Source: an uncultured Pelagibacteraceae bacterium
GTDB taxonomy: Bacteria > Pseudomonadota > Alphaproteobacteria > Pelagibacterales > Pelagibacteraceae
Length of the DNA stretch: 33,249 nt
Assembly: GCA_902531025.1 (NCBI GenBank)
Contig: CACACV010000002.1
Span: forward strand, 1 to 33,249
Direction: 5' to 3'
Program-made: the position numbers and the translations under genes
The notes under the pieces: generated by a model
Database searches by the model: none
What the model was told of the DNA's origin: nothing
The model's input: the letters and a program-made list of their open reading frames with translations, nothing else
Shown: positions 4,221 to 31,840 of the stretch, one piece after another
How positions within the stretch are numbered: position 1 is the stretch's first letter
Layout: each line of letters starts with the position of its first letter

Positions 4221-4246
4221 AAAAAACTCCCTCATTAGTTAGTTTT

Positions 4247-4268
4247 TATAGTTTAAATTTAAACTATA
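4247..4268. promoter_or_regulatory. 22-bp perfect palindrome upstream of proteorhodopsin (possible operator or leader hairpin)
   Basis: TATAGTTTAAATTTAAACTATA is its own reverse complement. It lies 27-48 nt upstream of the proteorhodopsin ATG. Confidence 0.5.
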
Positions 4269-4271
4269 GCC

Positions 4272-4285
4272 GAACCTAATGGTTC
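4272..4285. other. Small hairpin GAACC-loop-GGTTC in the predicted proteorhodopsin leader
   Basis: GAACC TAAT GGTTC on the plus strand: 5-bp stem, 4-nt loop, next to the 22-bp palindrome. Confidence 0.35.
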
Positions 4286-4301
4286 AACTTAAGTTAGGGG
4301 C

Positions 4302-4330
4302 TTAATAGCAAATAAAAATAGATTATTGAA
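4302..4330 (-). promoter_or_regulatory. Candidate proteorhodopsin promoter
   Basis: On the minus strand: TTCAAT, 17 nt, TATTAA with an extended TGC just upstream of the -10. It would give a leader of roughly 75 nt. Assigned by eye only. Confidence 0.35.
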
Positions 4331-4433
4331 GACTTTTTGACCTCTAAAAAGTATTGATTTTACTTACTTTATAAAATTAAATACAACCTGATACATAAAA
4401 TCATTATAAAAGTGAATCAAAAAACAAATCACA

Positions 4434-6332
4434 ATGACAAGTAGTTTTAACAAAATTTATCAATATTCTATTCAAAAACCGGAAGAATTTTGGAAAGATA
4501 TTTCTGAAGATATCCATTGGTATAAAAAACCATCGAAAATTCTCAACAAAGCTAACCCTCCTTTTTATAAATGGTTCGAAGATGGAGTTACAAATACCTG
4601 TTACAATGCAATAGATGTCCATATCGATAAAGGCAATGGTGATAAAACTGCGTTGATCTATGACAGTCCTATTACAAACAAAAAAGCAAAGTTTACATTT
4701 AATGAATTAAGAGAAAAAATTTCAAAGTTTGCTGGAGCATTAGATAATCAGGGTGTCAAAAAAGGTGACAGAGTAATTATTTATATGCCAATGATTCCTG
4801 AGGCAGTTATAGCGATGCTCGCATGTGGAAGAATTGGTGCCATACACTCTGTAGTTTTTGGTGGATTTGCATCAAATGAGCTAGCAAGCAGGATAGATGA
4901 TAGTAAAGCAAAAATTTTAATCACAGCATCATGTGGATTTGAGCCAGGTCGAACGGTAGAATATAGACCTTTGGTAGATGGTGCTTTAAAACTTGCAAAT
5001 CATAAAGTTGGGAAAGTCATTTTCTTTCAAAGAGAAGGTCACGAAGTAAATCTTAATTCTCCATTAGAGATAGATTGGGAAGAAGCTCTTGTTAATGCAA
5101 AAGATAAGGATTGTATTGAAATTGGAGCTAACGACTTTGCTTATATATTGTACACATCAGGAACAACGGGCATACCAAAAGGTATAGTGAGAGATATTGG
5201 GGGTCATATTGTTGCTCTTAAATGGACAATGAAAAATATTTACAACATTGATGAAAACGATGTTTGGTGGTCAGCAAGTGATATTGGATGGATAGTTGGA
5301 CATTCTTATATTGTCTACGCTCCTTTATTTAAAGGATGCACAACTGTTCTATTTGAAGGAAAACCAGTTGGAACACCTGATGCTGGGGTTTTTTGGAGAA
5401 TTATTTCTGAATATAAAATAAAATCATTATTTACAGCGCCAACTGCTTTCAGAGCAATCAAAAAAGAAGATCCTGATGGCAAATTTTTTTCTAAATATAA
5501 TTTGAGTTCATTTGAGTCATTATTTTTAGCTGGGGAAAGAGCTGATCCAGATACAATAAAGTGGGCTGAAAATCTTTTAAATGTTCCTGTAATTGATCAT
5601 TGGTGGCAAACAGAAACGAGTTGGGCAATAAGTTCTAATTGTACTGGTATTGAAATGCAAAAAACTAAATATGGTTCAGCATGTAAAGCTGTGCCAGGTT
5701 ATGATGTAAAAATAATTAAACCTGATCATTCAATAGCAAAGCCAAATGAAATGGGAGATATAGTTGTTAAACTACCTTTGCCTCCAGGAACATTTCCTAC
5801 TCTTTGGAAAGCAGACAAAAGATATGAAGAAAATTATATGACAAATTATAAAGGGTACTACCAAACTTATGATGCAGGGCATATCGATGAAGATGGATAT
5901 ATTTGGATAATGTCACGAACTGATGACATAATAAATGTTGCAGGACATAGATTATCAACGGGTGCAATAGAGGAAGTATTATCTGAACATCAATCAGTTG
6001 CTGAATGTGCAGTTCTTGGAATTGCAGATAAGTTAAAAGGACAATTACCAATCGGAATGGTTGTTTTAAAATCTGGAGTAGAAAAAGACAACGATACAAT
6101 TTCAAAAGAATGTATTCAGATGGTTAGAGACAAAATTGGTCCAGTTGCAGCATTTAAAGTTGTTATAGTAATAAAGAGATTACCCAAAACAAGATCGGGA
6201 AAAATTCTAAGAGGAACTATTAGAAAAATTGCTGACAAGGAAGAATATAAAATGCCAGCTACAATAGACGATCCAGTAATACTTGAAGAAATTACACAAA
6301 GTTTAATAGAAAATAATATTCTTAATAAATAG
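4434..6332 (+). CDS. prpE: Propionyl-CoA synthetase / acyl-CoA synthetase
   Basis: AMP-binding motif 'YILYTSGTTGIPKGIVRD', PrpE-like 'ITASCGFEPGRTVEYRPLVDGAL', C-terminal 'KTRSGKILRGTIRKIAD'. Confidence 0.88.
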   Translation: MTSSFNKIYQYSIQKPEEFWKDISEDIHWYKKPSKILNKANPPFYKWFEDGVTNTCYNAIDVHIDKGNGDKTALIYDSPITNKKAKFTFNELREKISKFAGALDNQGVKKGDRVIIYMPMIPEAVIAMLACGRIGAIHSVVFGGFASNELASRIDDSKAKILITASCGFEPGRTVEYRPLVDGALKLANHKVGKVIFFQREGHEVNLNSPLEIDWEEALVNAKDKDCIEIGANDFAYILYTSGTTGIPKGIVRDIGGHIVALKWTMKNIYNIDENDVWWSASDIGWIVGHSYIVYAPLFKGCTTVLFEGKPVGTPDAGVFWRIISEYKIKSLFTAPTAFRAIKKEDPDGKFFSKYNLSSFESLFLAGERADPDTIKWAENLLNVPVIDHWWQTETSWAISSNCTGIEMQKTKYGSACKAVPGYDVKIIKPDHSIAKPNEMGDIVVKLPLPPGTFPTLWKADKRYEENYMTNYKGYYQTYDAGHIDEDGYIWIMSRTDDIINVAGHRLSTGAIEEVLSEHQSVAECAVLGIADKLKGQLPIGMVVLKSGVEKDNDTISKECIQMVRDKIGPVAAFKVVIVIKRLPKTRSGKILRGTIRKIADKEEYKMPATIDDPVILEEITQSLIENNILNK

Positions 6333-13824: not shown

Positions 13825-15503
13825 AATTAAAAATTTCATTAACCTAAATAATCTTGATGGATATATTGTTCCAAAAAATGATGAGTTTTTTACTGAATAT
13901 TCAAAAACTAATAAACTTGAAATAGTTGCAAAATTTACTGGATCAGCAGGCTTTATTCTAATTTTAAAAAATACAAATCATTTATTTGTTGACGGCAGAT
14001 ATACAATTCAAGCTAAGCGACAATCAGGAAAAAAATTTAATATTCATGAGATACCATACGTTTGGCCTAAAGATATTTTAAAAAACTATGAAATATTGAA
14101 TATTGGATTTGATCCAAAATTATTCACAAAAGATACATTAAAATTATATTTTGATAACTCTTGCAATCTATTTCCTATTAATTCTGATTTATTTAAAGGC
14201 ATGACTGAAACGATTAATAAACATAATTTAGTTTACTCAATTAACAGTTCAATTGCAGGAGAAAGTTCAACGAGTAAAACTGAAAGATTAAAAAAAATTA
14301 TTAAAAAAAAAAAAATAGATAATTTATTTATCAGTGCAGGTGAAAATGTTTGTTGGTTGCTAAATATAAGAGGAAAAGATCTGCCAAATTCGCCTATAGT
14401 TAATGTTCAAGCAATTTTAACTAGTAACAAAGAAGTAATTCTTTTTGGTAATATAAAAAAATTAAAAGCAATAAAAAAAAAATTAAACAAAAAAATTACT
14501 TTTTTTAAAAAAGATCAATTTTTCACAGTTTTAAGCTCTTTAAAAGGAAAGACATTTTGTGTGGATGGCAAAACTTGCTCGGTTCTGAATGAAAATTTAA
14601 TAAATTCAAAATTTAAAATAAAAAAAAGGATTGATCCAATTTATGATTTAAAATCAGTTAAAAATAAAATTGAAATTAAAAATATGGTTGATGCACATAT
14701 TCAAGATGGTGTTGCAGTAACAAAATTTTTATATTGGATTAAGAACTCAAATATTAAAAATTTAGATGAAATTAAAGTCGAAAAAAAGTTAGAAAGTTTC
14801 AGAAAGCGAAGCAAAAACTTTCTCTATCCTAGTTTTAATACTATAGCAGGATCGGGACCAAATGGTGCAATCATTCATTATAGATCAAATAAAAAATCAA
14901 ATCGTAAGCTAAACAAAAATCATCTTTTATTAGTTGACTCAGGTGGCCAATACAAATGGGGCACTACGGATGTTACTAGAACAATTTCTTTTAATAAACC
15001 TAATAAAAAAAATCAAAGAGCTTTATACAAGAGTTTTAAAAGGTCATATTGCCGTTTCAACATCAAAAATAGATAAAATTAAAAATGGTAATAATTTAGA
15101 TAAGCTTGCTAGAAAAAGCCTTAACTCAATAAATTTAGACTATAGACATGGTACAGGTCATGGTGTTGGCTTTTTCATGAATGTACATGAAGGTCCACAG
15201 AGTATTTCGAAGAATAACTTTGTAAAACTTATAAAAGGCATGATCGTTAGCAATGAGCCAGGTTTTTATTTAGAAAACAAGTTTGGAATAAGAATAGAGA
15301 ATTTGGTTTATATTGATGGCAATAATAAAAGTCTTTTTTTAAAAAATTTAACTTTTGCACCTCTTGAAAAAGATTTAATAGAGGAAAATTTGCTAACAAA
15401 AATAGAAAAGGATTATATTCTTAATTATCACCTTGAAACTTACTCAAAAATATCACCATTTTTAAATAACAATGAAAGAAGATGGCTTGTAAAATTAATT
15501 TAA
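13814..15503 (+). CDS. pepP: Xaa-Pro aminopeptidase (M24B), split by an apparent +1-A frameshift near 15005-15012
   Basis: N-terminal part 13814-15076 ('GSAGFILILKNTNHLFVDGRYTIQA', 'LLVDSGGQYKWGTTDVTRTIS') and C-terminal part in 14934-15503 ('YTRVLKGHIAVSTSK', 'DYRHGTGHGVGFFMNVHEGPQSI', 'GMIVSNEPGFYLENKFGIRIENL'). Removing one A from A8 restores one ORF. Confidence 0.85.
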
Positions 15504-17505
15504 CAAATCAGACCATTCTTTTTGTGTGAGTATTTGGATTCCTAAGTTTTTAGCTTGCTCTAATTTTCTATTAGTTGGTTTTTCACCAAGTACTAAATAG
15601 TCAAGTTTTTTAGTAACACTACTAACAATGCTACCTGAATTTTCCTCAATTAAGCTTTTAGCCTCAGCTCTACTAATATTTTGTAGTTTACCAGTAAACA
15701 TAAAAGATTTATTCTTTAATTTTCCTTTTTTGTTAACTTCCCTTTCTTTAATTTTTAATATTTCACTTAATTTCTCTATAACTTTAATATTTGTTTTATT
15801 TTGAAAGAATTTTTTCAAAGACTTAATTTGTGTTTCTCCAATTCCATCTATGTTAATAAGCTCCTCGATTTTATTTTTTTTAGCTAATTTTAGAAAATTT
15901 TTTATAGTTTTTGTAAAATCTGCAATAATTTTAGCATTTTCCATTCCAATATGTCTTATTCCTAATGAAAAAATAAATTTATCTAAGGTAACCTCTTTCG
16001 AATTTTCGATTGAAAACTTAAGATTTGAAACAGATTGCGATCCCCATCCGTCAAGGGAGGATATTTTTTGATAATTCAAATTGAATATATCTTGAGGAAA
16101 TTTTATAAAATTTAAATCCCAAAATTTTTCTACAACCTTTTTTTCCTAAACCATCAATATTTATAGCATCTTTAGATATAAAATGTTTAATCCTCTCAAT
16201 TGCAATTTTCTCACAAGCAAAACTTTCATTGATACATCTTCGTACCGCATCGAATTTTTTTGTAATTTTGTTATATTCTTTTTCTGTCTTAGATCCGCAA
16301 GAAGGACATTTTGTTGGAAAAATAAATTTGCTTAATTTTTCTTTCCTTTTTTTTAAATCTACCTCTAAAACATGAGGAATCACATCTCCTGCTCTCTCAA
16401 TTTTTACAGTATCACCAATTCTTATATCTTTTCTCAAAATTTCATCTTCATTGTGTAAAGTTGCATTCGATACAACTACACCTCCTATATTAACTGGCTT
16501 CACTTTAGCAACTGGCGTTAAGGCTCCAGTTCTTCCAACCTGTATATCTATATTTAGTATTTCTGAATAAGCATGATCTGCAGAAAATTTATGTGCAATT
16601 GCCCATCTGGGGGCATTAGAGGTAAAGCCTAATCTTCTTTGTAACTGTATGTTATTTACTTTATAAACAAGACCATCAATATCATATTTTAAATCAAACC
16701 TTTTTTTTTCAAATTGCTGGTGAAAATACACTAACTCATTAATACTTTTAATAACTTCATTGTGTTCACTTGTTAAAAATCCCCACGATTTTAACTCTTT
16801 TAAAAAGTCAGATTGATTTTTAAATTTATTTTCACTAATAAATCCGAATGTATAAGCAATAAATTTTAATGGAATTTTGCTTGTTTCTTTTGAATCTTTT
16901 TGTCTAAGGGAACCTGAGGCTGCATTTCTAGGGTTAGCAAAGTTTTCTTTAATTTTTTGAAAGTCATCTTTGTTTATATAAACTTCTCCTCTTATTTCGA
17001 TATCTTTAGGAAAATTGCTGTTTCTAACCTTATGCGGAATATCCTTAATAGTTTTTAAATTTTCTGTAATTATTTCTCCTTCTTTTCCATCGCCCCTTGA
17101 TACTCCATAAATAAGATCCCCATTTTTATATGTTAGGGATGCAGAAATTCCATCAATTTTGGGTTCCACACTGTAGTTTAAATAGGCTTTTTCATTTAAA
17201 AAATTAAATATTTTTTTTTCAAAATTTATTAAATCTTCTTCATCAAATGCGTTCGATAAAGATAACATTTTTTCTCGATGCTTATATTTTGCAAAATTTT
17301 TTGATGGTTTAAAACCTACGTTTTTTGATGGAGAAAAATTACTTTTTAAATAAATATGTTCCTTTTCTAAGTCTAATATTTGCCTTTTTAATTTATCATA
17401 CTCTTTATCAGAAATTACTGGGGAACTGTTTTCATAGTAGAATTTATTATGTTTCTTTAATTCATCTATTTTTTTTTGATAATCTTGTTTAATATTTTTA
17501 TTCAT
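15495..17505 (-). CDS. ligA: NAD+-dependent DNA ligase, split by an apparent +1-A frameshift at 16138-16144
   Basis: N-terminal part has 'SVEPKIDGISASLTYKNG', OB fold 'VGRTGALTPVAKV' and zinc finger 'CPSCGSKTEKEY...RRCINESFAC'. C-terminal part has HhH repeats and BRCT 'SFMFTGKLQNISRAEAKSLIEENSGSIVSSVTKKLDYLVLGEKP'. Removing one A (minus strand) gives 'GLGKKVVEKFWDLNFIKFPQDIFNLNYQKISSLDGWGSQS', joining the halves. Confidence 0.92.
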
Positions 17506-18392: not shown

Positions 18393-19313
18393 TTAAGCTA
18401 TTGATCTTAGCTGATCTTTGTTAGCTAGCGAATGAGGTAAGTTTTTACCTTTAATTTCTATTAATGAATAGTTTTTTCGGTCACTAAATAATTTTCTAAG
18501 CAAATTATTTGTCAAATAATGTCCACCTTGAGAGCATTTTAAAGAGCCTATCATTTTAAAACCTGACAAATATAAGTCTCCCATACAATCTAAAATTTTA
18601 TGATTAACAAACTCTTTTTTATTTCTTAAGCCTTCCTCATTAATTAATGAGTTTCCCTTTACAACTAATGCATTATCTAAACTGCCACCCTTTCCAAGAC
18701 CCATTTTTTTTAATTTTTCAATATCTTCGTATAAGCAAAAAGTTCTAGAATTATATATATTGGTTAAATCATCTTCAAATACACTTATTTTGTTTCTTTG
18801 AGAATTAATAAATTGATTTTGGTACTTAATTTCAAAATCTATATCTAAACTTACATTAGATTTTTTAATTGAAATTGATTTGTAACCATCCTTAATTTCT
18901 AATGGTTGCTCAACCTTTATAATTTTTATGGGAACCTCACTAACCTGAACTCCTGCTTGAATTATCAATTCAACAAATTTTTTTGCAGATCCATCCATAA
19001 TTGGAACTTCTTGAGAATTTAGTTCTATAATCGCATTATCTATATTCATACCATACAAGGCACCCATCAGATGTTCTATGGTAGAAACTTTAACTTCATA
19101 TTCGTTTGAAATTGTAGTGCAGAGGGTTGCATCGACTACATTATTATAAGTTGGTATAATTATATTATTTTTTTTAATATCAACTCTTTTAAAAATGATT
19201 CCACTATTGGGATGAGCGGGCAATATATCTAAGTGTACTTTTAATCCTGTGTGTATGCCGATACCATCTATAGATATTTTTTTTGAAATAGTTTTTTGAG
19301 TTAATATTGGCAT
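18393..19313 (-). CDS. lpxC: UDP-3-O-acyl-N-acetylglucosamine deacetylase
   Basis: 'QKTISKKISIDGIGIHTGLKVHLDILPAHPNSGIIFKR', 'TIEHLMGALYGMNIDNAIIELNSQEVPIMDGSAKKFV', 'VNHKILDCMGDLYLSG'. Confidence 0.95.
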   Translation of the reverse strand: MPILTQKTISKKISIDGIGIHTGLKVHLDILPAHPNSGIIFKRVDIKKNNIIIPTYNNVVDATLCTTISNEYEVKVSTIEHLMGALYGMNIDNAIIELNSQEVPIMDGSAKKFVELIIQAGVQVSEVPIKIIKVEQPLEIKDGYKSISIKKSNVSLDIDFEIKYQNQFINSQRNKISVFEDDLTNIYNSRTFCLYEDIEKLKKMGLGKGGSLDNALVVKGNSLINEEGLRNKKEFVNHKILDCMGDLYLSGFKMIGSLKCSQGGHYLTNNLLRKLFSDRKNYSLIEIKGKNLPHSLANKDQLRSIA

Positions 19314-19375
19314 TAATCAATTATATTAAAATGACAAACAATTAGATATACAACAAATGTTACAACAAAATACAA

Positions 19376-20557
19376 TCAGCCATTTCCAAAAATGTTAAAA
19401 AATCTTTGAAAAAAACCTAATTTATTTTGATGTTTTTTAATTTTATCCTTATTTATATCTTTAAAATTTTCCCTAAAAATTAAACCTGCCTCGCAAACTT
19501 CATGCTCATTTTCTTCATAAAAGTTTATTTCCTTAAAGTTGTATTTGTCCTCCAATTGAAAGGTATTTTTATTAAAAATTTTTGAGCCATTTCCAATAAG
19601 TACTAATGATAAATTTTGTATTTTATCAAAATCTTGTGAGATATTTATATCTTTTAAAGATAATTTTATTATTTCTTCAATTCTTGCTAGTACAACTTTT
19701 TTTAACAAATCTATTGAAATATTTTTTCCTATAATTTCTTGCAAAATGTCATTATTTCTCTTTGAATTTTCATCATCATAAGAAAAATCTATTTCAGATT
19801 TATTAAACCTTTTTTTTAAATTTTCTGACTCTTCCATATTTAAATTCATTATTTGAGATATATCTTTAGAAATATTATTTCCACCAATGGGAATACTGTT
19901 TAAAAATTTTAACTTTTGTTTATTAAAAAAAATTACAGTAGTTCTATCAAAACCAATATCAAGAAAAGCCACAAATTCGTTATCTTTAAAATAATTAATA
20001 TATTTATATGATTTAACTAAACTTGATGAAAAAAAATCTAAAATATTTAAATTATTTTTTTTAAATACCTCGATTACATTTTTATATTGATAGTAAGGTA
20101 AACATATAAGTGTAATTTCAAGTATTGCAGAATTTTTTTCATTTATTTGTTCTGGCATATTTAAAAATTCTTTATCATTAATGATATATTTCTTTACTAT
20201 TGAGTGGATAATTTTTTTATTTGTATAGCAATCTTTTATTAATTGATTTGCCTCTAAAATTATTGATGAACAAAAATCTTTAAAAGAAATTTTTTGATCT
20301 ATTTTTTTTTTAATAGAAAGGTCAATAGTATAAATATCTGGGCTATCATATAATACAGTTAAATTTTCAAGATGAGTAGAAATTTTACTTTCTGCATCTC
20401 TAACTAGTAAATTTACTTTTTCCAAGTACTCATCATGATTATTATTTTGAATAATTTTTTTTGACTGAAAAAATAATTTAGAAAAATTTTCACTAAAAAC
20501 TCCTAATCTTAATTCACTAGATCCAAAATCAATTATAGATGAATATTTATCCTTCAT
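19376..20557 (-). CDS. ftsA: Cell division protein FtsA
   Basis: Actin/ASKHA fold: 'SSIIDFGSSELRLGVF', 'FVAFLDIGFDRTTVIFFNKQKLKFLNSIPIGGNNISKDISQIMNL', 'LSLVLIGNGSKI'. Sits immediately after ftsQ. Confidence 0.82.
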   Translation of the reverse strand: MKDKYSSIIDFGSSELRLGVFSENFSKLFFQSKKIIQNNNHDEYLEKVNLLVRDAESKISTHLENLTVLYDSPDIYTIDLSIKKKIDQKISFKDFCSSIILEANQLIKDCYTNKKIIHSIVKKYIINDKEFLNMPEQINEKNSAILEITLICLPYYQYKNVIEVFKKNNLNILDFFSSSLVKSYKYINYFKDNEFVAFLDIGFDRTTVIFFNKQKLKFLNSIPIGGNNISKDISQIMNLNMEESENLKKRFNKSEIDFSYDDENSKRNNDILQEIIGKNISIDLLKKVVLARIEEIIKLSLKDINISQDFDKIQNLSLVLIGNGSKIFNKNTFQLEDKYNFKEINFYEENEHEVCEAGLIFRENFKDINKDKIKKHQNKLGFFQRFFNIFGNG

Positions 20558-21242
20558 AATTTGATATAATTATTTTGTCGTTCATTCTTAGATCAATCAA
20601 TTGACCTGGTATAATTTTTTTTAACTTAATAAATGATCTATAATTTTTTAATGATTTCTCCAAATTGAATGATGGAAGCATTACAATAGTATTATTTTCA
20701 AACTGAATATCCCATCTGTTACTTTTAAAATGATAATATTTTTTAATTTTGCTTAAATTAAAATTATATAATTCTAAAATTCTTTGTAATTTTAATAACT
20801 CATTTACTTGAAAGTTTCCAAAAACTTCAGGCAAATTAGTTTCTTTTTCTACCAAAGATATCTTTGTAAGTTTTCCATTTTTACCAATATAGAATTTTTT
20901 TCCGTCAAATATTGTAATTCCTACAAAATCAGTTTTTTTTACTTTAACTAATAATTTAGAAGGTAGAATTTTGTTAATTGTATAATTATCTAAAAAACTA
21001 TTTGTATTTAACCTTTGGTTAACCTCATCTTTACTAATTAAAAATATATTTTTTTTTTTAAAAAATTCTAAGTTTTTTTCAAGTATTGTTGTCTCTTTTT
21101 TATTAAGTCCAACAACATTGATATTATTTACTAAATTAAATTTTTTAAATTTAGAAATAACATTAAAGTTAAATGTTGAACTTAATAATAGTAATATTAA
21201 CAAATAAAAATAAATTCTTTTCTTACTTATTGATTGAAGCAT
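20547..21242 (-). CDS. ftsQ: Cell division protein FtsQ
   Basis: N-terminal TM then POTRA-like 'INVVGLNKKETTILEKNLEFFKKKNIFLISKDEV' and 'FYIGKNGKLTKI'; position between ddl and ftsA. Confidence 0.78.
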   Translation of the reverse strand: MLQSISKKRIYFYLLILLLLSSTFNFNVISKFKKFNLVNNINVVGLNKKETTILEKNLEFFKKKNIFLISKDEVNQRLNTNSFLDNYTINKILPSKLLVKVKKTDFVGITIFDGKKFYIGKNGKLTKISLVEKETNLPEVFGNFQVNELLKLQRILELYNFNLSKIKKYYHFKSNRWDIQFENNTIVMLPSFNLEKSLKNYRSFIKLKKIIPGQLIDLRMNDKIIISNYEG

Positions 21243-22146
21243 CTTTAATTATTTTTTCAATTAACTCAATAAAGCTTATTTTATTATAATTTGCAATTTC
21301 AGGTACTAATGAAAGCGCAGTCATACCGGGCTGAGTATTGGTTTCTAACAAGTAAAATTTATTTTTATAAAATCTAAAATCTGATCTCGTAACTCCTCTA
21401 CATTTTAAAATTTTATGTGCTTTTAATGCTAAATCTGTAACTTTATTATAATTTTTTTTACTAATTTTAACTGGGATTATATGTTCAGTTTTTGCATTAG
21501 GATTATATTTTGCCTCATAATCATAGAATTGTCTCTTAGGTTTTAATTCTATGGCTCCTAGCTTTTGTCTACCAAATATTGCAACTTGAATTTCTCTTCC
21601 TGGAATGAATTTTTCAATCAAAACCTCTCCATAACTTTGTAATTTAAATAAATTTTTGATAAAATTTGACTTATTGCATATGTAAACATTAACACTAGAA
21701 CCCTCATTAATTGGTTTTACAACTACTGGAAAATCTAATTTTTTTTTAATTTTTTTAATAATATTTTTTTTAATAACATTTTTTTTAAATAAAAATTTAA
21801 TATATTTGGGTGTTAAAATATTATTTTTAATAAATAGTTTTTTTGATAGTTCTTTATCTATCGCTACAGCAGAGGATTTTACGCCAGAATGAGTATATTT
21901 AACTTTTTCTGACTCGAGTATTGATTGAATGTAACCATCTTCTCCATACCTGCCATGAAGTAAATTCAAAACTAGATTGGGTTTAAAAAATCTTAATTTT
22001 TTTACAAACTTTCCATCAGGTTCAATAATTTTTAGATTATATTTTTTATTTTTTTTTAACTCTAAATAGACACTCTTAGCAGTTAATAAACTTATATCTC
22101 TTTCATTTGAGTAACCGCCTGCTATTAATAGAATTTTTTTTTTCAA
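21223..22146 (-). CDS. ddl: D-alanine--D-alanine ligase
   Basis: ATP-grasp: 'GGYSNERDISLLTAKSV', 'NLLHGRYGEDGYIQSILE', 'PVVVKPINEGSSVNVYIC', 'YLLETNTQPGMTALSLVPEIA'. Confidence 0.93.
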   Translation of the reverse strand: MKKKILLIAGGYSNERDISLLTAKSVYLELKKNKKYNLKIIEPDGKFVKKLRFFKPNLVLNLLHGRYGEDGYIQSILESEKVKYTHSGVKSSAVAIDKELSKKLFIKNNILTPKYIKFLFKKNVIKKNIIKKIKKKLDFPVVVKPINEGSSVNVYICNKSNFIKNLFKLQSYGEVLIEKFIPGREIQVAIFGRQKLGAIELKPKRQFYDYEAKYNPNAKTEHIIPVKISKKNYNKVTDLALKAHKILKCRGVTRSDFRFYKNKFYLLETNTQPGMTALSLVPEIANYNKISFIELIEKIIKDASINK

Positions 22147-22147
22147 T

Positions 22148-23056
22148 TTATTCTAAAATTTTAATTTCTTTTTCTAAACTAATTCCGGTCTTTTCCAAAA
22201 CTCTTTTACTTACAAAATTGATCAACTTTGACATATCTTTGAATGTTGCATTTCCTTTATTAACAAAAAAATTACAATGTTTATCTGAAATACAAGCATC
22301 TCCAAAATTTTTATCTAATGGCACAGAATCTTTTATAAGTTCCCAAACCTTTTTTTTAGTTTGTGATATAGGATTTTTAAATGTGCTACCACTGGTTTTA
22401 ATTCTTGTTGGTTGTGCTTTTTCTTTTTTTAATTTTAGCTCATTTGTAAAATTTTTTATTTTTTTTTGATCTCCCTTGACTCCTTTAAAAGATGCACTTA
22501 AAAAAACTAAGTCATCAGATAAACTAGTTTTTCTATATTCAAATTTAATTTTTTCAGCAGGCAGATTTATTACATTTCCAAAAATATCAATTGCTTGAAT
22601 CGATATCAATATATCCTTAAATTCATTTCCAAAACAACCAGCATTCATTCTTATACCTCCTCCAATCGTACCAGGAATACAGGATAAAAATTCAAATCCA
22701 CTTAAATTATAATTTATTGCAAAATCAGATAGAGCTTTATCTAAAGCAGCACTTCCAGCAATTATTATATCTTCGCCTAGAAGAGAAATATTACCAAAAT
22801 TTCTACCTAATTTTATAACTACACCATCAAATAAATTATCTGTGATTAAAGTATTTGATCCTGCGCCAAGAATAAATATTTTTTCTCTTCCCTTAAGCTT
22901 TTTTAAAAAATTAACTAATTCTTTTAAATTTTCAGCTTTAAAAAAAACTTTTGATTTTCCTCCAATATTAAACCAATTTTTTTTCTTTAGATCATGTTCG
23001 AATCTTACATTGTCTCCAAATTCTAATAACAAATTTTTTAGCTCATTTGTTTCCAT
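22148..23056 (-). CDS. murB: UDP-N-acetylenolpyruvoylglucosamine reductase
   Basis: 'FILGAGSNTLITDNLFDGVVIKLG', 'GFEFLSCIPGTIGGGIRMNAGCFG', 'GSTFKNP'. Confidence 0.95.
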   Translation of the reverse strand: METNELKNLLLEFGDNVRFEHDLKKKNWFNIGGKSKVFFKAENLKELVNFLKKLKGREKIFILGAGSNTLITDNLFDGVVIKLGRNFGNISLLGEDIIIAGSAALDKALSDFAINYNLSGFEFLSCIPGTIGGGIRMNAGCFGNEFKDILISIQAIDIFGNVINLPAEKIKFEYRKTSLSDDLVFLSASFKGVKGDQKKIKNFTNELKLKKEKAQPTRIKTSGSTFKNPISQTKKKVWELIKDSVPLDKNFGDACISDKHCNFFVNKGNATFKDMSKLINFVSKRVLEKTGISLEKEIKILE

Positions 23057-24450
23057 TACATTAACTCCTGAAGTTTTCTCATCCAGTTAGAAATAGATCC
23101 TGCCCCCATTCCTATTACAATTTTTTTGCCATACATATTTTTTTTAAGGAATATTGCTAATTGTTTGTTATCATTAACTAAAAATAATTTAACTTTTGAA
23201 TTTTTTATAATTTCTTTTGCAAAATTTAAATAACTAAATCCTAATTTTATTTTTTCTCCAGCGGTATATACTGGACACAAAACAACAGTATCAGCATTTT
23301 GAAAAGCAAAAGAAAATTCTCTTCTTAAATCTTTTAATCTTGAAATTCGATGAGGCTGAAATATACAAACTTTATCAAAACCATCATAAACTTTATTAAC
23401 TCCTTCTAGTACAACTTTTATCTCTGTTGGATGATGCGCATAATCATCATAAAAATCTATTTCATTATAAGTAAATATTTTATTAAATCTTCTTTGGACA
23501 CCTTTAAAATTTAATAATCCTTTTTTAATATCTGAAATAGATATTCCTACTGTTAAAGCAACTGCTGCTGCCGCAACTGAATTTCTAATGTTATGAAGTC
23601 CAAGTAAAGGTATTTTTATTTTTCTTATGAATAATTTTTTTTTATTTGGAACATTCACAAGCAAATCAAATTCAGTAAATTTTATATTTTGTTTGATATT
23701 CTTAATTAAAAAATTTGATTTAGAATTAATTCCATATGTATAAATATTTTTACTATTAAGTTTTCTAATAAGATCGGTGCTAATTTTATCGTCTATACAT
23801 ATAAAGGATTTTCCAAATGAAGGAACTTTTTCAATAAATTTAATAAAGTAATTTTTTAAACTATCCATAGATTTATAAAAATCCATGTGCTCTCTATCTA
23901 TATTTGTAATAATTGAATAGGTGGGAGGAATATGTACAAAACTTCCATCAGATTCGTCTGCTTCTAAAATTGACCATTCACTTTTTCCAAGTTTAGCAGT
24001 ATTTTTTATAGAATTAATAACGCCACCATTAATAATTGTAGGATCTAATTTAGTTTTTTGTAAAATTGATGCAACTAAAGATGTTGTGGTGGTTTTTCCA
24101 TGCGAACCAACTACAACGATGTTTCTCATTAAAGAAACTATATGAGCCAACATTTCACCTCTCAAAATAATAGGCAGATTTTTTCTTTTTGCCTCAATCA
24201 TTTCTGGATTATTTTTTTTTATTGCTGAAGATATTACAACTATTGTTGCATTTTTAAGATTTTGTTTTTTTTGTCCTATAAAAATTTTTATTTTCTCTTT
24301 TTTAAGTCTCTCAATATTTTTATTTTCTAAAATATCACTTCCCTGAACTTTAAAACCTTTTCCTTTCATAATCAGCGAAAGTCCACTCATTCCAATTCCC
24401 CCAATTCCTACGAAATGAATTAGTTCGGTTTTTCCTAATTCAATTTTCAT
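23056..24450 (-). CDS. murC: UDP-N-acetylmuramate--L-alanine ligase
   Basis: 'HFVGIGGIGMSGLSLIMKGKGFKVQGSD', 'VVGSHGKTTTTSLVASIL', 'DDYAHHPTEIKVVLEG'. Confidence 0.96.
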   Translation of the reverse strand: MKIELGKTELIHFVGIGGIGMSGLSLIMKGKGFKVQGSDILENKNIERLKKEKIKIFIGQKKQNLKNATIVVISSAIKKNNPEMIEAKRKNLPIILRGEMLAHIVSLMRNIVVVGSHGKTTTTSLVASILQKTKLDPTIINGGVINSIKNTAKLGKSEWSILEADESDGSFVHIPPTYSIITNIDREHMDFYKSMDSLKNYFIKFIEKVPSFGKSFICIDDKISTDLIRKLNSKNIYTYGINSKSNFLIKNIKQNIKFTEFDLLVNVPNKKKLFIRKIKIPLLGLHNIRNSVAAAAVALTVGISISDIKKGLLNFKGVQRRFNKIFTYNEIDFYDDYAHHPTEIKVVLEGVNKVYDGFDKVCIFQPHRISRLKDLRREFSFAFQNADTVVLCPVYTAGEKIKLGFSYLNFAKEIIKNSKVKLFLVNDNKQLAIFLKKNMYGKKIVIGMGAGSISNWMRKLQELM

Positions 24451-25504
24451 TTATATTTTCCAATATTTTTTGATTAACATTAATCCAAGTATTTTTGTAA
24501 TTTAATTTTTTTAAATTTTCCTTTTTTTTAATATAATCATTTTTATTAATTAAAATATCTTTCAAAACTTCTTCAATTTTTTCTTCAAAATATTTTTGCT
24601 CTAATATCCAGCAACAACCATGATTCTTATAAAAATTAGCATTTTCAAATTGATGATTATCTTTTGATGATGGTAATGGAATTGCAATAAATGGGATATT
24701 TAAAACAGATAACTCGGCTAAAGTTGAAGCCCCAGCTCTTGTTAAACAAAGATCAGCTTGATGAATAATATTTTCAAAATTTTTTTCAAAATTAAAAATG
24801 GTATTTTCAATATTGTTTTTAGAATAAAAATTTTTTAAATCGTTAATATTTTTATTGCTTGTTTGTTGTATTATATTTAAAGAAAATTTTTTTGAAATAT
24901 TCACAATTAAGTTTTTTAGATTTTTATCAAATATACTTGCGCCTTGGCTGCCTCCTACTACTAATATATTGAACTTATGTTTAGTATTATAGTTATTATT
25001 TAATTTATAGATATTTTCTTTTACTAATGGTTTAATAATTGCCATTTTGCTTTTTGAGTTATTAGGAAAATTTTTAATATCTTCAGAATAACAAAAAATT
25101 TTTATACATGAATTCAAAAAATACTTATTTGCTCTTCCCAAAACCATATTGGGCTCAAGTAAGTAAATTTTTAAGTTAAGTAATTTAGCTGCTAAAATTA
25201 GAGGCAATGACATATATCCTCCTGTAGAAATAAGTTTTTCTACTTTTCTATTTTTTAAAAGAAAAAATGATTTAAAAGTTAAAAATAATATTAAAATTAC
25301 ATTAATTGGCAAAATAAAAATATTATTCAGTTTTGGAGTATCAATTACATTATATTTATAATTATCTTTATCTAAATATCTTGAGCCTCTTTTATCAGTT
25401 GAAATAGTTACATTCATATCTTTTGATAAATGATCAAAAAGAATCATGGCCGGGACTACATGACCCCCTGAACCGCCAGTAGTAATTAGTATATTTCCTT
25501 TCAT
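24440..25504 (-). CDS. murG: MurG glycosyltransferase (lipid II synthesis)
   Basis: 'ITTGGSGGHVVPAMILFDHL', 'YLLEPNMVLGRANKYF', 'VVGGSQGASIFD', 'LCLTRAGASTLAELSVLNIPFIAIPLPSSKDNHQFENA'. Confidence 0.94.
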   Translation of the reverse strand: MKGNILITTGGSGGHVVPAMILFDHLSKDMNVTISTDKRGSRYLDKDNYKYNVIDTPKLNNIFILPINVILILFLTFKSFFLLKNRKVEKLISTGGYMSLPLILAAKLLNLKIYLLEPNMVLGRANKYFLNSCIKIFCYSEDIKNFPNNSKSKMAIIKPLVKENIYKLNNNYNTKHKFNILVVGGSQGASIFDKNLKNLIVNISKKFSLNIIQQTSNKNINDLKNFYSKNNIENTIFNFEKNFENIIHQADLCLTRAGASTLAELSVLNIPFIAIPLPSSKDNHQFENANFYKNHGCCWILEQKYFEEKIEEVLKDILINKNDYIKKKENLKKLNYKNTWINVNQKILENINEN

Positions 25505-25505
25505 C

Positions 25506-26615
25506 TTAGCTAACTTTTCTTTTTGTTAAATTTAAAATAATTCCTGAAATTATTGCTGTACTAACAATAGATGAACCGCCATAACTTAAATATGGTAATG
25601 TCATGCCAGTAGTTGGTAATAACCTAATATTTACTCCAATGTGAACAAATGTTTGCAACAAAATCAATGAAACACTGCCAATTAATATTAATTTAATCTT
25701 TTCTGCGTTTACCAAATTTATTTTTTGTATTATTTTGTATGCAAATACCAAGTACAATAATATGATAGCTATAACGATTATTGCGCCAAACTCTTCGGAA
25801 ACTACGGAAACAATATAATCAGTGTGAGCTTCTGGAATCTTTGAATTAAGAGTGCCTTCTCCTATACCCTTTCCAAAGAAACCGCCACTAATAATAGCAT
25901 CACTTGCTTTTTCAGCTTGATAATTACCAGACTCAGAAGAATTTATAAATGAAAACAATCTAAACTTAATGTACTCAAATTTTGAAACAAAAAAAATTAA
26001 ATAAGAAGCTGTTAAAAAAACAATTATAAAAAATATAAGGAATAAATATATATTAATTCCAGAGACAAAAATAAGAGTTAACCATATCATTGCTATAAGC
26101 AGCGTTTGACCTAAATCTGGTTGGGAAATTAATAGTAATAAGATTGGTAAAAGTATTAGGCTACTTAAAAAATATTTAAAATATAAGTTATTTTTTTTTA
26201 AACATAATAAGGTTGATAAAATTACTATAAAAAAAGGCTTAATAATTTCAATTGGCTGGAATCTTGGTAAAAATCCAAAATCTATCCATCTTTTTGATCC
26301 TTTAACCTCTATTCCAATGAATGGTACTAAAACTAAAGTAATAAATGATATACAGAATAAAAAAATCGATATTTTAATTAATAGTTCTTCTTTCAAAAAT
26401 GAAAAAATAATTAATATAATTATTCCCAAAATTATAAAAGCAAAATGTTTAATAAAAAAATAATAAGAATTTGTATCAAGTTTGTCAGAAGCTATTATGG
26501 AAGTCGAAACTAATGAAAAAAATAATCCCAAAATAAATAAAATAAATGTCAAAGAAAAAATATATTTATCAATATTTTTCCACCAATCATAAAAGTTATC
26601 AAAATAATTTTTCAT
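25506..26615 (-). CDS. ftsW: FtsW (SEDS-family peptidoglycan glycosyltransferase)
   Basis: Multi-TM; 'QPIEIIKPFFIVILS', 'LISQPDLGQTLLIAMIWLTLIFVSGI', 'EAHTDYIVSVVSEEFGAI', 'GVNIRLLPTTGMTLPYLSYGGSS'. Confidence 0.92.
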   Translation of the reverse strand: MKNYFDNFYDWWKNIDKYIFSLTFILFILGLFFSLVSTSIIASDKLDTNSYYFFIKHFAFIILGIIILIIFSFLKEELLIKISIFLFCISFITLVLVPFIGIEVKGSKRWIDFGFLPRFQPIEIIKPFFIVILSTLLCLKKNNLYFKYFLSSLILLPILLLLISQPDLGQTLLIAMIWLTLIFVSGINIYLFLIFFIIVFLTASYLIFFVSKFEYIKFRLFSFINSSESGNYQAEKASDAIISGGFFGKGIGEGTLNSKIPEAHTDYIVSVVSEEFGAIIVIAIILLYLVFAYKIIQKINLVNAEKIKLILIGSVSLILLQTFVHIGVNIRLLPTTGMTLPYLSYGGSSIVSTAIISGIILNLTKRKVS

Positions 26616-26625
26616 AAAATAAAAT

Positions 26626-27918
26626 TTATTTTTTTAAATGTTTTTTAATAATTTTATTAAAATATTTTCCCCTATCTTCAAAATTTTTAAATTGATCAAA
26701 AGATGCAGCTGAAGGACTAAATATAAGAATTCTTTTTTCTTCATTTTTTTTAAAATCTTTAAGAGCTTGTAATAAAGAATGATTTAAATTTTTTGATATT
26801 TTATATTTAATTTTATTAGATAATATTTTTGAAAAAAATAATTTATCTTTTCCATAGATAAATGCTTTGATTTTTCTAAAATTTTCTTTTTTTAATTTTA
26901 ATTTATCTCCTTTCTTAGCTATACCTCCCAAGATCCAATAAATGTTATTAAAAGTCTCCAACAAAGGGAGTGTTGAAGATAAACTGGTTGATTTAGAGTC
27001 ATTGATTACAATTAATGTTTTAGACTGATAAATTGTCTGTTGCCTAAAATCTAAATGCTTAAATTTATTAGCTGCACTAATTATTTTTTTTAAATGAAGT
27101 TTCAAATTTTTAGAAAGAGCAAATATAAAAGAAAGATTTTTAAAGTTAGATACATTTTTAAGATAATCGTTGGTTATCATTTTATGATATCTTTTATATT
27201 TTTCATAATTTACTCTATAAATTCTAGGATTAATTTTATTTTTTTTAATCAAATTATTTAATAAATAATTATTTTTTTCTATAAAAGCACAATCTTTTTT
27301 TGATTGGTTTTGTATTAATTTAAATTTTGCTTTTATGTAGTTTTTATAATTTCCATGTCTTTCAAGATGATCTGGTGAAAGGTTCAATATAACAGAAAAT
27401 TCTGATTTAAAAAATTTACTATATTCTAATTGGTAAGATGATGCCTCTATTACAAAAAGTGTATTATTCTTTAAATTTCTTTCAAGCAGTGTTGGGCTTC
27501 CAATATTTCCCGTTAATCTTACATCTTTTCCATGTTCTTTTAAAATATCATATAATAGTTTTGAAGTTGTAGATTTTCCATTAGTACCAGTAATCGTTAT
27601 TTTTTGTACATTTGGATAACTCAAATAAAATATATCAAGCTCTGTGATTACTTTAGAATTATTATTTTTTAAATATTTGGATAATTTACAATTATTTATA
27701 TCTATCCCAGGACTTAAAACTATGTAATCAAAATTATTTTTTTTTAACTGCTTGTAGTTTATCGTTTTATGTTGATATTTTGATGGTATATTTATCTTAT
27801 TATCATCAATAATTTTACAATAATTTTTTTTATTCAAAAATTTATAAGAAGCGTATCCAGACTTTCCAAAACCATAAATTAAAAAATTTTTTTTATAAAA
27901 TATAGTTTTTTTTTGCAT
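26626..27918 (-). CDS. murD: UDP-N-acetylmuramoylalanine--D-glutamate ligase
   Basis: 'FLIYGFGKSGYASYKFL', 'VLSPGID', 'TITGTNGKSTTSKLLYDIL', 'NLSPDHLERHGNYKNYIKAK', 'INDSKSTSL'. Confidence 0.92.
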   Translation of the reverse strand: MQKKTIFYKKNFLIYGFGKSGYASYKFLNKKNYCKIIDDNKINIPSKYQHKTINYKQLKKNNFDYIVLSPGIDINNCKLSKYLKNNNSKVITELDIFYLSYPNVQKITITGTNGKSTTSKLLYDILKEHGKDVRLTGNIGSPTLLERNLKNNTLFVIEASSYQLEYSKFFKSEFSVILNLSPDHLERHGNYKNYIKAKFKLIQNQSKKDCAFIEKNNYLLNNLIKKNKINPRIYRVNYEKYKRYHKMITNDYLKNVSNFKNLSFIFALSKNLKLHLKKIISAANKFKHLDFRQQTIYQSKTLIVINDSKSTSLSSTLPLLETFNNIYWILGGIAKKGDKLKLKKENFRKIKAFIYGKDKLFFSKILSNKIKYKISKNLNHSLLQALKDFKKNEEKRILIFSPSAASFDQFKNFEDRGKYFNKIIKKHLKK

Positions 27919-27921
27919 TCA

Positions 27922-29007
27922 TTATCTAAATTTTAAAGTTGCTAATCCTATCATTGCCAAAATGATAGAAATTATCCAAAATCTAATAACCACTGTAGAT
28001 TCGGGCCATCCTTTCTTTTCAAAGTGATGGTGAATTGGTGCCATTTTAAATATTCTTTTGCCCGTTAACTTAAAAGAAATTACTTGCGCAATAACTGATA
28101 TTGCCTCTAATACAAATAATCCTCCGGTTATTGCCAAAACAATTTCATGTTTGGTAATTATTCCTACAGCTCCTAAAGATCCTCCTAAAGCAAGCGATCC
28201 GGTATCTCCCATAAAAATTTTTGCTGGAGGAGCATTAAACCACAAAAATCCTAAACAGGCTCCAATGATTGATCCACAGAATATAGATGCTTCACCTACT
28301 CCTTCAATATATGGAATTTGCAAATATCCGGAAAAAACTATATTTCCTGTAACATAACTAATAAATGCAAAACAAGCAGCCACTAGTATTACTGGAACTG
28401 TTGCTAAACCATCTAATCCATCAGTCAAATTAACAGCATTAGATGAACCAACTAAAATAAATAGGTAAAAAGGAATAAAGAACCAACCCAAATTTATTAC
28501 CAAGTTTTTGAAAAAAGGAAAATATAGATTTTTTATTTGATCAGACTCACTAAAAGTATAAAGAATAAATATTCCAATTAAAGCTAATACAACTTGAATA
28601 ATAAATTTAAATTTTGAAGATACGCCTGAAGAATGATTTTTCTTAATTTTTTTATAGTCATCATAAGCACCCAATAATCCAAAAGATCCTGCAATATAAA
28701 TCAAAAACCAATTGTAAGGATTTGAAAGATCTCCCCATAATAAAACTCCAGAAAAAACTCCAAGCAGTATCATTAGCCCTCCCATTGTTGGAGTTCCTAT
28801 TTTTTTTACTATATGATCCGAAGGTCCATCATCTCTTATTGGATTATGTATCTGTTTTGCCGAAAAATAATTTATTAATGGATTCCCAACAATAAAAACT
28901 ATTATCATTGAGGTAAACATTGACAAACCAGTTCTAACAGTTAAATACTTAAAGACATTAAAGAAACTAAAGATATCTACCAAACTTGAAAAAAGACTAA
29001 ACAGCAT
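27922..29007 (-). CDS. mraY: Phospho-N-acetylmuramoyl-pentapeptide transferase
   Basis: 'GTPTMGGLMILLG', 'LLGAYDDYKKIKKNHSSGVSSKFKF', 'NAVNLTDGLDGLATVP', 'FMGDTGSLALGGSLGAVGI', 'MAPIHHHFEKKGWPES'. Confidence 0.96.
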   Translation of the reverse strand: MLFSLFSSLVDIFSFFNVFKYLTVRTGLSMFTSMIIVFIVGNPLINYFSAKQIHNPIRDDGPSDHIVKKIGTPTMGGLMILLGVFSGVLLWGDLSNPYNWFLIYIAGSFGLLGAYDDYKKIKKNHSSGVSSKFKFIIQVVLALIGIFILYTFSESDQIKNLYFPFFKNLVINLGWFFIPFYLFILVGSSNAVNLTDGLDGLATVPVILVAACFAFISYVTGNIVFSGYLQIPYIEGVGEASIFCGSIIGACLGFLWFNAPPAKIFMGDTGSLALGGSLGAVGIITKHEIVLAITGGLFVLEAISVIAQVISFKLTGKRIFKMAPIHHHFEKKGWPESTVVIRFWIISIILAMIGLATLKFR

Positions 29008-31840
29008 TAATTTTTCCTACTTTTAGATTTTTCATGATAGCATTTAGACCTGTAGAGTTTGAACCTTTAACCATTAAATATTCACCATTTTTTATATCAT
29101 TTTTTATAAAATTTGAGACATCTTTGCTTGAATACAATATCTTTCCTCTTTTTTGTGGTCTAATTTTGTTAAACGTACTACTAATTCTTTTTCCATAAAC
29201 ATAAGCTCTATTAATGTTAGTTTTATTAACTATTTTAGCTACTTCTAGATGCAATTTTTTTGAAAATTTTCCTAATTCCAACATATCTCCCAATAAAATT
29301 ATTTTTCTTTTAGAATTACTTTTTAAATTATTAAAATTGTTTAAAGCAAACTTTAAAGATAAAGGATTTGAATTATAACTTTCATCAATAAGATGAATTT
29401 TTTTCTTATTAATTTTTATAAGCTTATAATCTCCTCTTCCCTCGGGTAAGTTGTAACTAAAGAAGAACTTTTTACTAATATTTTTTATATCTAAAAAAAT
29501 TGAAATTACCGCAAGGCTAGCAAGTATATTATCTATATAAGCCTCTACATTTCTCTTAATTTTAAAATCTATAGATCTTCCATCAATATTTATTTTAACA
29601 ATACTAATATTTTTTTTTCTTTTAATTTTTTCAAGCTTTATGTTGGATTTATTTTTTTTACTAAAAGAAATGATATTTAAATTTCTATTTAACGCTTTTA
29701 TCTTAAAATATTTGTAAAATTTGTCATCAGCATTTAATACAATGGACCCATTTTTTAAAATATTATCTATAATTTCTGATTTAGCTTTAGCTATACCAAA
29801 GAGATTTTTAAAATTCTTACTATGAGCATATGAAATATTTGTTATTAATCCTATATTTGGTTTTATTATCTTTGATAAATAATCTATTTCACCTTTTTTA
29901 TACATTCCAAGTTCAAAAACACCAAACTTATCTTTATTATCTATATTGAATAACGAAAGAGGAACACCATATTTGTTATTATAAGATTTTTTGGAGTAAG
30001 TAGTTCTGTGAAATTTGTTTAATGATTGGCCTAATAATTCCTTTAGAGATGTTTTGCCTGCTGAACCGGTAATTCCTATTGCAATAATGCCTGACGAGGC
30101 TCTAACTTTGCTTGCACATTCTGTAAAAATTTTTAAAGTATTTTTAAGCTTAATTTTTTTTTTTATATTTGATCCATAATATTTATCTACAATTGAAACT
30201 GAAGCTCCTTTTTTTACTGCTTCATTGGCATATTTATTGCCATCTACCTTTTTTCCTTTAATTGCAAAAAAAATATTATTTTTTTTAATTTCCTTTGAAT
30301 TGATGCAAGCTTTATTGATAATTATATTGTTACCCAGTTTCTTTTTTATTTTCTCTTCTATAATGTTTGTTTTCCAACTGTTATTTAAATTTCTATTTTT
30401 TTTTTTAATTGATTTTAATATGCAATCTTTATCTGAAAAATATTTTCTATTTTCATACTCTTGATAAGATTCATGACCCTTTCCTGCTACTACAACTATT
30501 TCATCTGATTTAATGTTATTAATAGCTTTGTTAATTGCAATTTTTCTAGATGAAATTTCAATTAATTTGTCTCTATTTATATATGTTTTAATTTCAGTTC
30601 TTATTTTTTTTGGATTCTCTTTTCGTGGATTGTCATCGGTTAAATAAACCTTGTTGCAATGCATATTTGCAATTCTACCCATGATTTTTCTCTTCGTTTT
30701 ATCTCTTTCTCCACCACATCCAAAAACTATATTTATTTTTTTTAATGGAAATTGTTCATTTATATTATTTAAACAAACTTTAAGAGCATCTGGCGTGTGT
30801 GCATAATCTAAAATTACGATAGAATTATTTTTTAAATTACCAACTTTTTCAAGCCTGCCTGGTATATGCTTTATTTTTTTTATTGAATTTAAAATATTTT
30901 TAAAATTTAAATTACTTTTAGAAGCTGCCAAGATTGACATCAAAAGATTCTTAACTTGTATTTTTCCTATTAATTTTGTTGAAAAATTATAAATGTTTTT
31001 TTTATATATAAATTTAACATGCTGATTATATTTCAAAAACTTGTGATCAATTATCTTCAAACTAGAATTATCGGATCCTATGCTTAATGAATTTAAATTA
31101 TTTTTTTTTATAATATTTTTTAACTTGTTTTTAAATATTAAATTTTCATCATAAATTACTATAGATTTTTTTTTCATTAATTTTTTAAATAAAATTAATT
31201 TTGAGTTAAAATAATCTTTGAATGTTTTATGATAATCAAGGTGATCTCTGGTTAGGTTTGTAAATATTCCTATATTAAATTTTAATCCATTTAGTCTATG
31301 TTGTTTAAGCCCATGACTCGAAGCTTCTAAAATAACATTGTTAATTTTTTTTTTTTTTAAACTTGTTAAAATATTATTTAATAGAATTGGATCATATGTG
31401 GTATTTAAAAAAATATTTTTATAATTAAATCCACTTATTCCAAGAGTTCCTATCGAAGAAACTTTAATTTTATTTAGTTTTAAAATTTGATAATAGAAAT
31501 TAGCTATTGAGGATTTTCCATTTGTTCCGGTAACTGCAATTAAATTTTTTGGACGTTTAAAATTTAATTTCGTAGAAAATTCTGCAAGTAGTTTTCTTGG
31601 GTTTTTATTTTTTAAATATAAGACATTATTTTCAAATCTTTCTTTAACTTTTTCAGATACTATTATTTTTGATCCTTTTTTTATTGCATCTTTAATATAT
31701 TTATTTCCATCAAGATTATTTCCTTTTATAGCAAAAAAAATATAATTTTTTTTAATCAATTTTGAGTCAAACGCTATTCCATTAAACTCAAATTTTTTAA
31801 ATTTTTTATTTAAATTTGAATAATAGTCTTTAAGTAACAT
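28997..31840 (-). CDS. murE-murF: Fused MurE-MurF ligase (947 aa; MurE about 30390-31840, MurF about 28997-30390)
   Basis: Two Mur-ligase cores in one ORF: MurE 'AVTGTNGKSSIANFYYQIL' plus meso-DAP motif 'LTDDNPRKENP'; MurF 'AIGITGSAGKTSLKELLGQSL', 'FGVFELGMYKKGEIDYLSKIIKPNIGLITNI', 'LIDESYNSNPLSLKFAL'. Confidence 0.92.
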   Translation of the reverse strand: MLLKDYYSNLNKKFKKFEFNGIAFDSKLIKKNYIFFAIKGNNLDGNKYIKDAIKKGSKIIVSEKVKERFENNVLYLKNKNPRKLLAEFSTKLNFKRPKNLIAVTGTNGKSSIANFYYQILKLNKIKVSSIGTLGISGFNYKNIFLNTTYDPILLNNILTSLKKKKINNVILEASSHGLKQHRLNGLKFNIGIFTNLTRDHLDYHKTFKDYFNSKLILFKKLMKKKSIVIYDENLIFKNKLKNIIKKNNLNSLSIGSDNSSLKIIDHKFLKYNQHVKFIYKKNIYNFSTKLIGKIQVKNLLMSILAASKSNLNFKNILNSIKKIKHIPGRLEKVGNLKNNSIVILDYAHTPDALKVCLNNINEQFPLKKINIVFGCGGERDKTKRKIMGRIANMHCNKVYLTDDNPRKENPKKIRTEIKTYINRDKLIEISSRKIAINKAINNIKSDEIVVVAGKGHESYQEYENRKYFSDKDCILKSIKKKNRNLNNSWKTNIIEEKIKKKLGNNIIINKACINSKEIKKNNIFFAIKGKKVDGNKYANEAVKKGASVSIVDKYYGSNIKKKIKLKNTLKIFTECASKVRASSGIIAIGITGSAGKTSLKELLGQSLNKFHRTTYSKKSYNNKYGVPLSLFNIDNKDKFGVFELGMYKKGEIDYLSKIIKPNIGLITNISYAHSKNFKNLFGIAKAKSEIIDNILKNGSIVLNADDKFYKYFKIKALNRNLNIISFSKKNKSNIKLEKIKRKKNISIVKINIDGRSIDFKIKRNVEAYIDNILASLAVISIFLDIKNISKKFFFSYNLPEGRGDYKLIKINKKKIHLIDESYNSNPLSLKFALNNFNNLKSNSKRKIILLGDMLELGKFSKKLHLEVAKIVNKTNINRAYVYGKRISSTFNKIRPQKRGKILYSSKDVSNFIKNDIKNGEYLMVKGSNSTGLNAIMKNLKVGKINAV
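30396..30406 (-). repeat. A11 homopolymer (minus strand) in the MurE/MurF linker
   Basis: T11 on the plus strand at 30396-30406; encodes part of '...CILKSIKKKNRNLNNSW...'. Confidence 0.9.

Follow-up and report, generated by a model that had tools for sequence, protein, structure and literature searches.

Where is the ftsZ gene of this Pelagibacteraceae bacterium? The window (the whole stretch of DNA that we analyzed, 33,249 bases, which is all of contig C2 of the assembly) includes the site between ftsA and lpxC where most alphaproteobacteria have ftsZ. Here, the spacer between these two genes is 62 bp long and contains no open reading frame (ORF) (Table 1; ORF list of the window), and a profile search of the genome found no FtsZ anywhere in the window. 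A preliminary description of this region had noticed the gap and suggested that ftsZ had moved, had been lost, or had been dropped cleanly by the assembly. It also described the remaining visible dcw genes as being in the canonical order. We agree, and add that murE and murF form a single fused ORF (947 amino acids, 28997-31840). This fusion is found in the genus of the window; in the loci that we read from other SAR11 genera and from family f2, no ORF in the cluster is as long. The window breaks off within ftsI and therefore does not include the head of the cluster.

Table 1. Features of the window, in coordinates of contig C2.
Feature	Position	Strand	Basis
lpxC, 306 amino acids	18393-19313	-	TIGR00325, 275.9 bits (cut-off 187.25)
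ftsA-lpxC intergenic region, the ftsZ site of most alphaproteobacteria	19314-19375	-	Sequence; side-by-side comparison with relatives
ftsA, long form, 393 amino acids	19376-20557	-	TIGR01174 below cut-off; PF14450 above; matches to FtsA in PDB; hydrophobic moment
Lobe II (2A/2B) of ftsA, about residues 191-347, absent from the mini-FtsA of many relatives	19517-19987	-	Comparison with short forms
ftsQ position, 231 amino acids	20547-21242	-	No NCBIfam match; assigned by its place and by conservation there in relatives
ddl, murB, murC, murG, ftsW, murD, mraY, fused murE-murF	21223-31840	-	Canonical dcw order
ftsI, cut by the contig end	31852-33249	-	Collinear mapping of both contig ends on G023

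The identity of LpxC is unambiguous. Judging by its sequence and by comparison with relatives, the spacer between ftsA and lpxC holds no remnant of ftsZ. It contains a non-coding stretch (similar to TTGTATTTTGTTGTAACATTTGTTG, also written as similar to TTTTCTTGTAAYATTTSTTG) that is followed by a TATAA-like hexamer. The non-coding stretch is well conserved in relatives, both in genomes with a long FtsA and in genomes with a short one (see below), and is a candidate for the promoter of lpxC or for a regulator's site. Elsewhere in the window, ligA (15495-17505) occupies two ORFs that overlap and differ in frame (484 and 194 amino acids), which match positions 2-457 and 472-664 of the LigA profile; this is a frameshift and possibly an assembly error.

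The search that the preliminary description had proposed, for the FtsZ/tubulin family across the full genome, gave a clear answer. Exactly one FtsZ is encoded by the host genome, on another contig (C5; Pfam tubulin/FtsZ profile against all contigs). The gene (C5:1173-2633, minus strand) is intact and encodes 486 amino acids. The protein scores 386.4 bits against TIGR00065 (cut-off 295.2) and retains the C-terminal anchor peptide DDLEIPAFLRRQKN, which is the conserved peptide that binds FtsA or another anchor. Along the direction of the genes, C5 carries ampD, rnpB, mraZ, ftsZ, rsmH, and the start of ftsL. The gene for the RNA of RNase P (rnpB; L001:2642-2999, minus strand; RF00010, 287.8 bits) is directly upstream of mraZ and is preceded by ampD, which lies upstream of mraZ in relatives too. 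At the corresponding locus of the near relative G023, the end of C5 maps to 4061-4459 and the end of C2 maps to 4864-5411. These are collinear, so the two contigs are halves of one dcw cluster. The break is in ftsL/ftsI, and about 404 bp are missing between the ends. With the cluster divided between C2 and C5, the window includes the vacated site but not ftsZ itself. When the halves are joined, ftsZ and ftsA are on the same strand, with ftsZ about 14 kb farther upstream. The mraZ of the host genome (C5:2724-3101; L002) encodes just 125 amino acids with an odd end, versus 147-156 amino acids in relatives; there is a frameshift near its 3' end, which is either real or an assembly error.

Every readable relative has ftsZ in the same place. 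All of the readable loci from Pelagibacteraceae and from family f2 have the order (ampD)-mraZ-ftsZ-rsmH-ftsI-murE-murF-mraY-murD-ftsW-murG-murC-murB-ddl-ftsQ-ftsA-lpxC-bamD-ligA. This order is also seen in genomes that are assembled into one contig (G012, G063, G065, G069, G077, G086, G095, G100, G103, and G123), such as G086 (1,308,759 bp) and G095 (1,456,888 bp). The ftsA-lpxC junctions of the relatives, closed genomes included, span 59-73 bp and lack ftsZ. The preliminary description had reasoned that an ftsZ conserved elsewhere in all relatives would make this a known lineage rearrangement, and by that rule we are dealing with a rearrangement of the lineage. Our search of the open-access literature on SAR11 with ftsZ, ftsA, or dcw found no description of the gene order of this cluster or of the form of FtsA.

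We surveyed the rest of the class with about one alphaproteobacterial genome per family, counting by hand. Of the 70 genomes with ftsZ and lpxC on one contig, 66 have the two genes within 3.5 kb of each other. The four exceptions are G069, which is from SAR11, and G311, G345, and G414; in the latter three, mraZ does not adjoin ftsZ. Most named alphaproteobacterial records (L094-L149), as well as G327, have ftsA-ftsZ-lpxC. In a genome from another order and family of the class (G309), the genes also run mraZ-ftsZ-rsmH, and ftsZ is missing from the ftsA-lpxC junction. The simplest reading is that ftsZ was transposed once, in the stem of SAR11. We propose that in the ancestor of Pelagibacterales and at least one sister lineage, ftsZ would have jumped from the gap between ftsA and lpxC to the gap between mraZ and rsmH, within the same dcw cluster.

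Some genomes had other peculiarities. Many contigs from family f2 stop within the linker of ftsZ (G037, G038, G045, G056, G057, and G058), and in some genomes of the family the linker is much longer, with FtsZ proteins of 562-606 amino acids. In G359 (rated as 100% complete; 0.9 Mb in 5 contigs), we found no match to FtsZ, and the match to LpxC has an internal stop codon.

The location of ftsZ, its conservation, and the clean old site are direct observations, and we estimate the probability that they reflect an old rearrangement of the lineage, rather than a loss or an artefact, at about 0.95. One concern was that the assembly had dropped ftsZ, a stretch of about 1.5 kb, from the ftsA-lpxC junction: it is fragmented into 77 contigs, is 55% complete, and contains at least two genes with frameshifts (mraZ and ligA). 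But relatives show the same short junction, and the only ftsZ in the host genome is elsewhere, so we consider an artefact very improbable; the closed relatives refute it. That ftsZ was lost, or was replaced by another division system, has nothing in its favor except for the gene's absence from the window. We give that idea practically no credence: it is refuted by the intact FtsZ on C5, which scores above the equivalog cut-off and is conserved in relatives.

What does the new location imply for the control of ftsZ? We compared 77 distinct regions upstream of mraZ, with first-order shuffles as the null. All 77 have two or more CCCA boxes with a spacing of 10 bp (versus 0.55 in shuffles), and 71 of the 77 have three such boxes (versus 0.00 in shuffles). 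On the other strand, CCCA reads as TGGG, which is a form of the MraZ box, and the layout of these predicted arrays is the one known for MraZ boxes. A TTGACN -35 element is present in 55 of the loci, with its end 13 bp upstream of the first box. The resulting spacer of 17 bp leads to a TAATAT-like -10 element that sits between the first two boxes. The array in the host genome is at C5:3125-3148, and a search of the window's half of the cluster found no such array. In E. coli, MraZ is reported to bind to conserved boxes upstream of the dcw cluster and to repress itself and other dcw genes (PMC8475190).

We propose an mraZ operon in which ftsZ comes second and which is transcribed from one sigma-70-type promoter, with its -10 element inside the MraZ-box array. 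If MraZ were bound at the predicted boxes, it would cover this promoter. The supply of FtsZ would then follow from the autoregulatory loop of MraZ and from nearness to the promoter, while FtsA would be made about 14 kb farther downstream, from the distal end of the cluster. We consider this mechanism likely, with the operon structure, the binding by MraZ, and the ratios of FtsZ to FtsA all being predictions from sequence. In Caulobacter, CtrA controls both ftsZ and ftsA, and no ctrA orthologue was found in Pelagibacter (PMC2877005), which fits with a switch in the control of these two genes. The preliminary description had also suggested that moving ftsZ would uncouple the dosage of FtsZ from FtsA. 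We find only partial support for this: ftsZ is now next to the MraZ-box promoter instead of ftsA, but it remains in the same cluster and on the same strand.

Alternatively, ftsZ might have moved and yet be driven by a promoter inside mraZ or in the mraZ-ftsZ gap, with the MraZ boxes acting on mraZ alone. Internal promoters feed ftsZ in E. coli, and in one clade of Pelagibacter (L026, L029, L030, L086, and L087) the gap reaches 171 bp, which leaves room for a separate promoter. This seems unlikely to us: in most genomes the gap is 1-25 bp, and the promoter that the boxes cover, upstream of mraZ, is close to consensus.

The FtsA of the window is recognizable but divergent. It scores 78.6 bits against TIGR01174, which is below the equivalog cut-off of 175.85, and 46.2 bits against PF14450, which is above the gathering score of 31.8. 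A profile of its relatives matches FtsA chains in PDB with E values down to 7e-27. The motifs for ATP (DFGSS, DIGFDRT, and IGNGSK) differ from the usual motifs of FtsA. The C-terminal amphipathic membrane helix (FQRFFNIFGNG) has a hydrophobic moment of 0.69, and 1.3% of shuffles are as high.

In many genomes of the window's genus, the ftsA site holds a much shorter gene, of about 220-236 amino acids (typically about 233), which we call mini-FtsA. Long forms have 369-394 amino acids in the window and elsewhere in the genus, whereas those of other genera have about 395-430. About two thirds of the Pelagibacter genomes that could be read have no FtsA other than the protein of about 233 amino acids. 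Within the genus, our hand count among the matches listed in the family survey gave at least 43 short and at least 23 long full-length proteins; contig-end fragments aside, these matches included no clear short FtsA from outside of the genus. Some very short frames (76-170 amino acids; G147, G202, G250, G270, and G294) might have been taken for further shortening, but these are contig ends. The assemblies break inside the short ftsA at the lpxC loci of these genomes (L191, L194, L198, L200, and L202, from G250, G147, G294, G202, and G270), as if the gene were hypervariable in the population. In the closed genome G012, the short ftsA (L065:17773-18461) is frameshifted in a poly-A run, so it could be a pseudogene or there could be a sequencing error.

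Mini-FtsA sits between ftsQ and lpxC, is homologous to the 1A/1C lobe of FtsA, and has an amphipathic C-terminal helix. It corresponds to the first 190 or so residues of the long form joined to the last 45 or so, with about 150 residues skipped. Aligning the short and long forms with hhalign gave a probability of 99.9 over positions 4-186 of the long form, and the C-terminal match covers its positions 345-389. The best match of mini-FtsA to solved structures covers only residues 72-195 of FtsA. In the Pfam search, mini-FtsA had a weak match to SHS2_FTSA (1C), and none of 11 members matched PF14450. By these comparisons, mini-FtsA lacks lobe II, with its ATP pocket and FtsZ-binding 2B, and keeps the 1A/1C lobe and the membrane helix. 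The short gene is under purifying selection and is not debris, because its dN/dS (0.15-0.27) is like that of the long form (0.23-0.26), if higher than that of LpxC (0.04-0.10), and because it retains the amphipathic helix.

How is the Z-ring anchored in these bacteria? In FtsA, 2B binds FtsZ and forms part of the ATP pocket, 1C recruits FtsN, and oligomerization occurs through 1A-1C and 2A-2B contacts (PMC8998562). In the gonococcus, 2A/2B are required for FtsA to bind both FtsZ and FtsN (PMC5727935). We did not find a second, full-length FtsA in the genomes with mini-FtsA, as their only matches to FtsA are at the site between ftsQ and lpxC. Nor did we find SepF or ZipA, as substitute anchors, in any of 12 genomes, and the positive controls did match. 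The C-terminal peptide of FtsZ is kept both in genomes with short FtsA and in genomes with long FtsA. As mini-FtsA lacks the ATP pocket and 2B, FtsZ would have to be held by a new contact or by another tether. We lean towards the view that in much of Pelagibacter, no actin-like FtsA takes part in tethering the Z-ring, and that FtsZ, at the head of the operon and under MraZ, is held in one of these two ways.

FtsA seems to have evolved rapidly, with a loss of lobe II in much of Pelagibacter that would have left a small membrane-bound 1A/1C protein. Our trees, which are quick searches, differ as to how many times this happened. A tree of FtsZ, LpxC, and BamD requires three changes in the form of FtsA and mildly rejects a single clade of short forms (p-AU = 0.024). 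This speaks for several independent losses of lobe II, by decay after the decoupling from ftsZ; the other reading is one deletion that spread by transfer. However, a tree of the N-terminal lobe of FtsA unites all of the short forms (SH-aLRT = 99), which favors one deletion and transfer, although rapid evolution could have attracted them to each other; and the dN/dS of the short gene speaks against plain neutral decay. We view independent losses as a tentative possibility. Both one deletion followed by transfer and several deletions with attraction of fast lineages are possible. The link between the move of ftsZ and the decay of FtsA is a correlation within one order, not a demonstrated cause: FtsA is long in every SAR11 genus but the window's own, even though all of them have the moved ftsZ.

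Compared to the canonical proteobacterial cluster (mraZ-rsmH-ftsL-ftsI-...-ftsQ-ftsA-ftsZ-lpxC), the SAR11 cluster has the same genes, strand, and remaining order, but ftsZ separates mraZ from rsmH, not ftsA from lpxC, and ampD and rnpB lie upstream. Mycoplasma genitalium also has ftsZ in an mraZ-led operon with a MraZ-responsive promoter (mraZ-mraW-MG_223-ftsZ; PMC8475190), which in SAR11 is a prediction. The cluster in M. genitalium is reduced to four genes, whereas the SAR11 cluster is complete and ftsZ itself has moved ahead of rsmH (mraW). The FtsA of E. coli and Thermotoga maritima is an actin-like anchor of the Z-ring. The window's FtsA shares its PF14450 lobe and C-terminal amphipathic helix but has ATP motifs that look degraded; mini-FtsA shares the 1A/1C lobe and the helix but lacks 2A/2B, which are part of the ATP pocket and of FtsZ binding (PMC8998562).

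The gene order around ftsA and ftsZ is very stable in bacteria, and few groups of cells in the ocean are as abundant as SAR11. A clean break across the order, with ftsZ next to the putative MraZ promoter, is a natural test of what the linkage of ftsA and ftsZ serves. The stripped FtsA in much of Pelagibacter is a stronger finding than the move of ftsZ. If it is real, then half of an FtsA can anchor the Z-ring, and the still-conserved tail of FtsZ would be predicted to have another partner.
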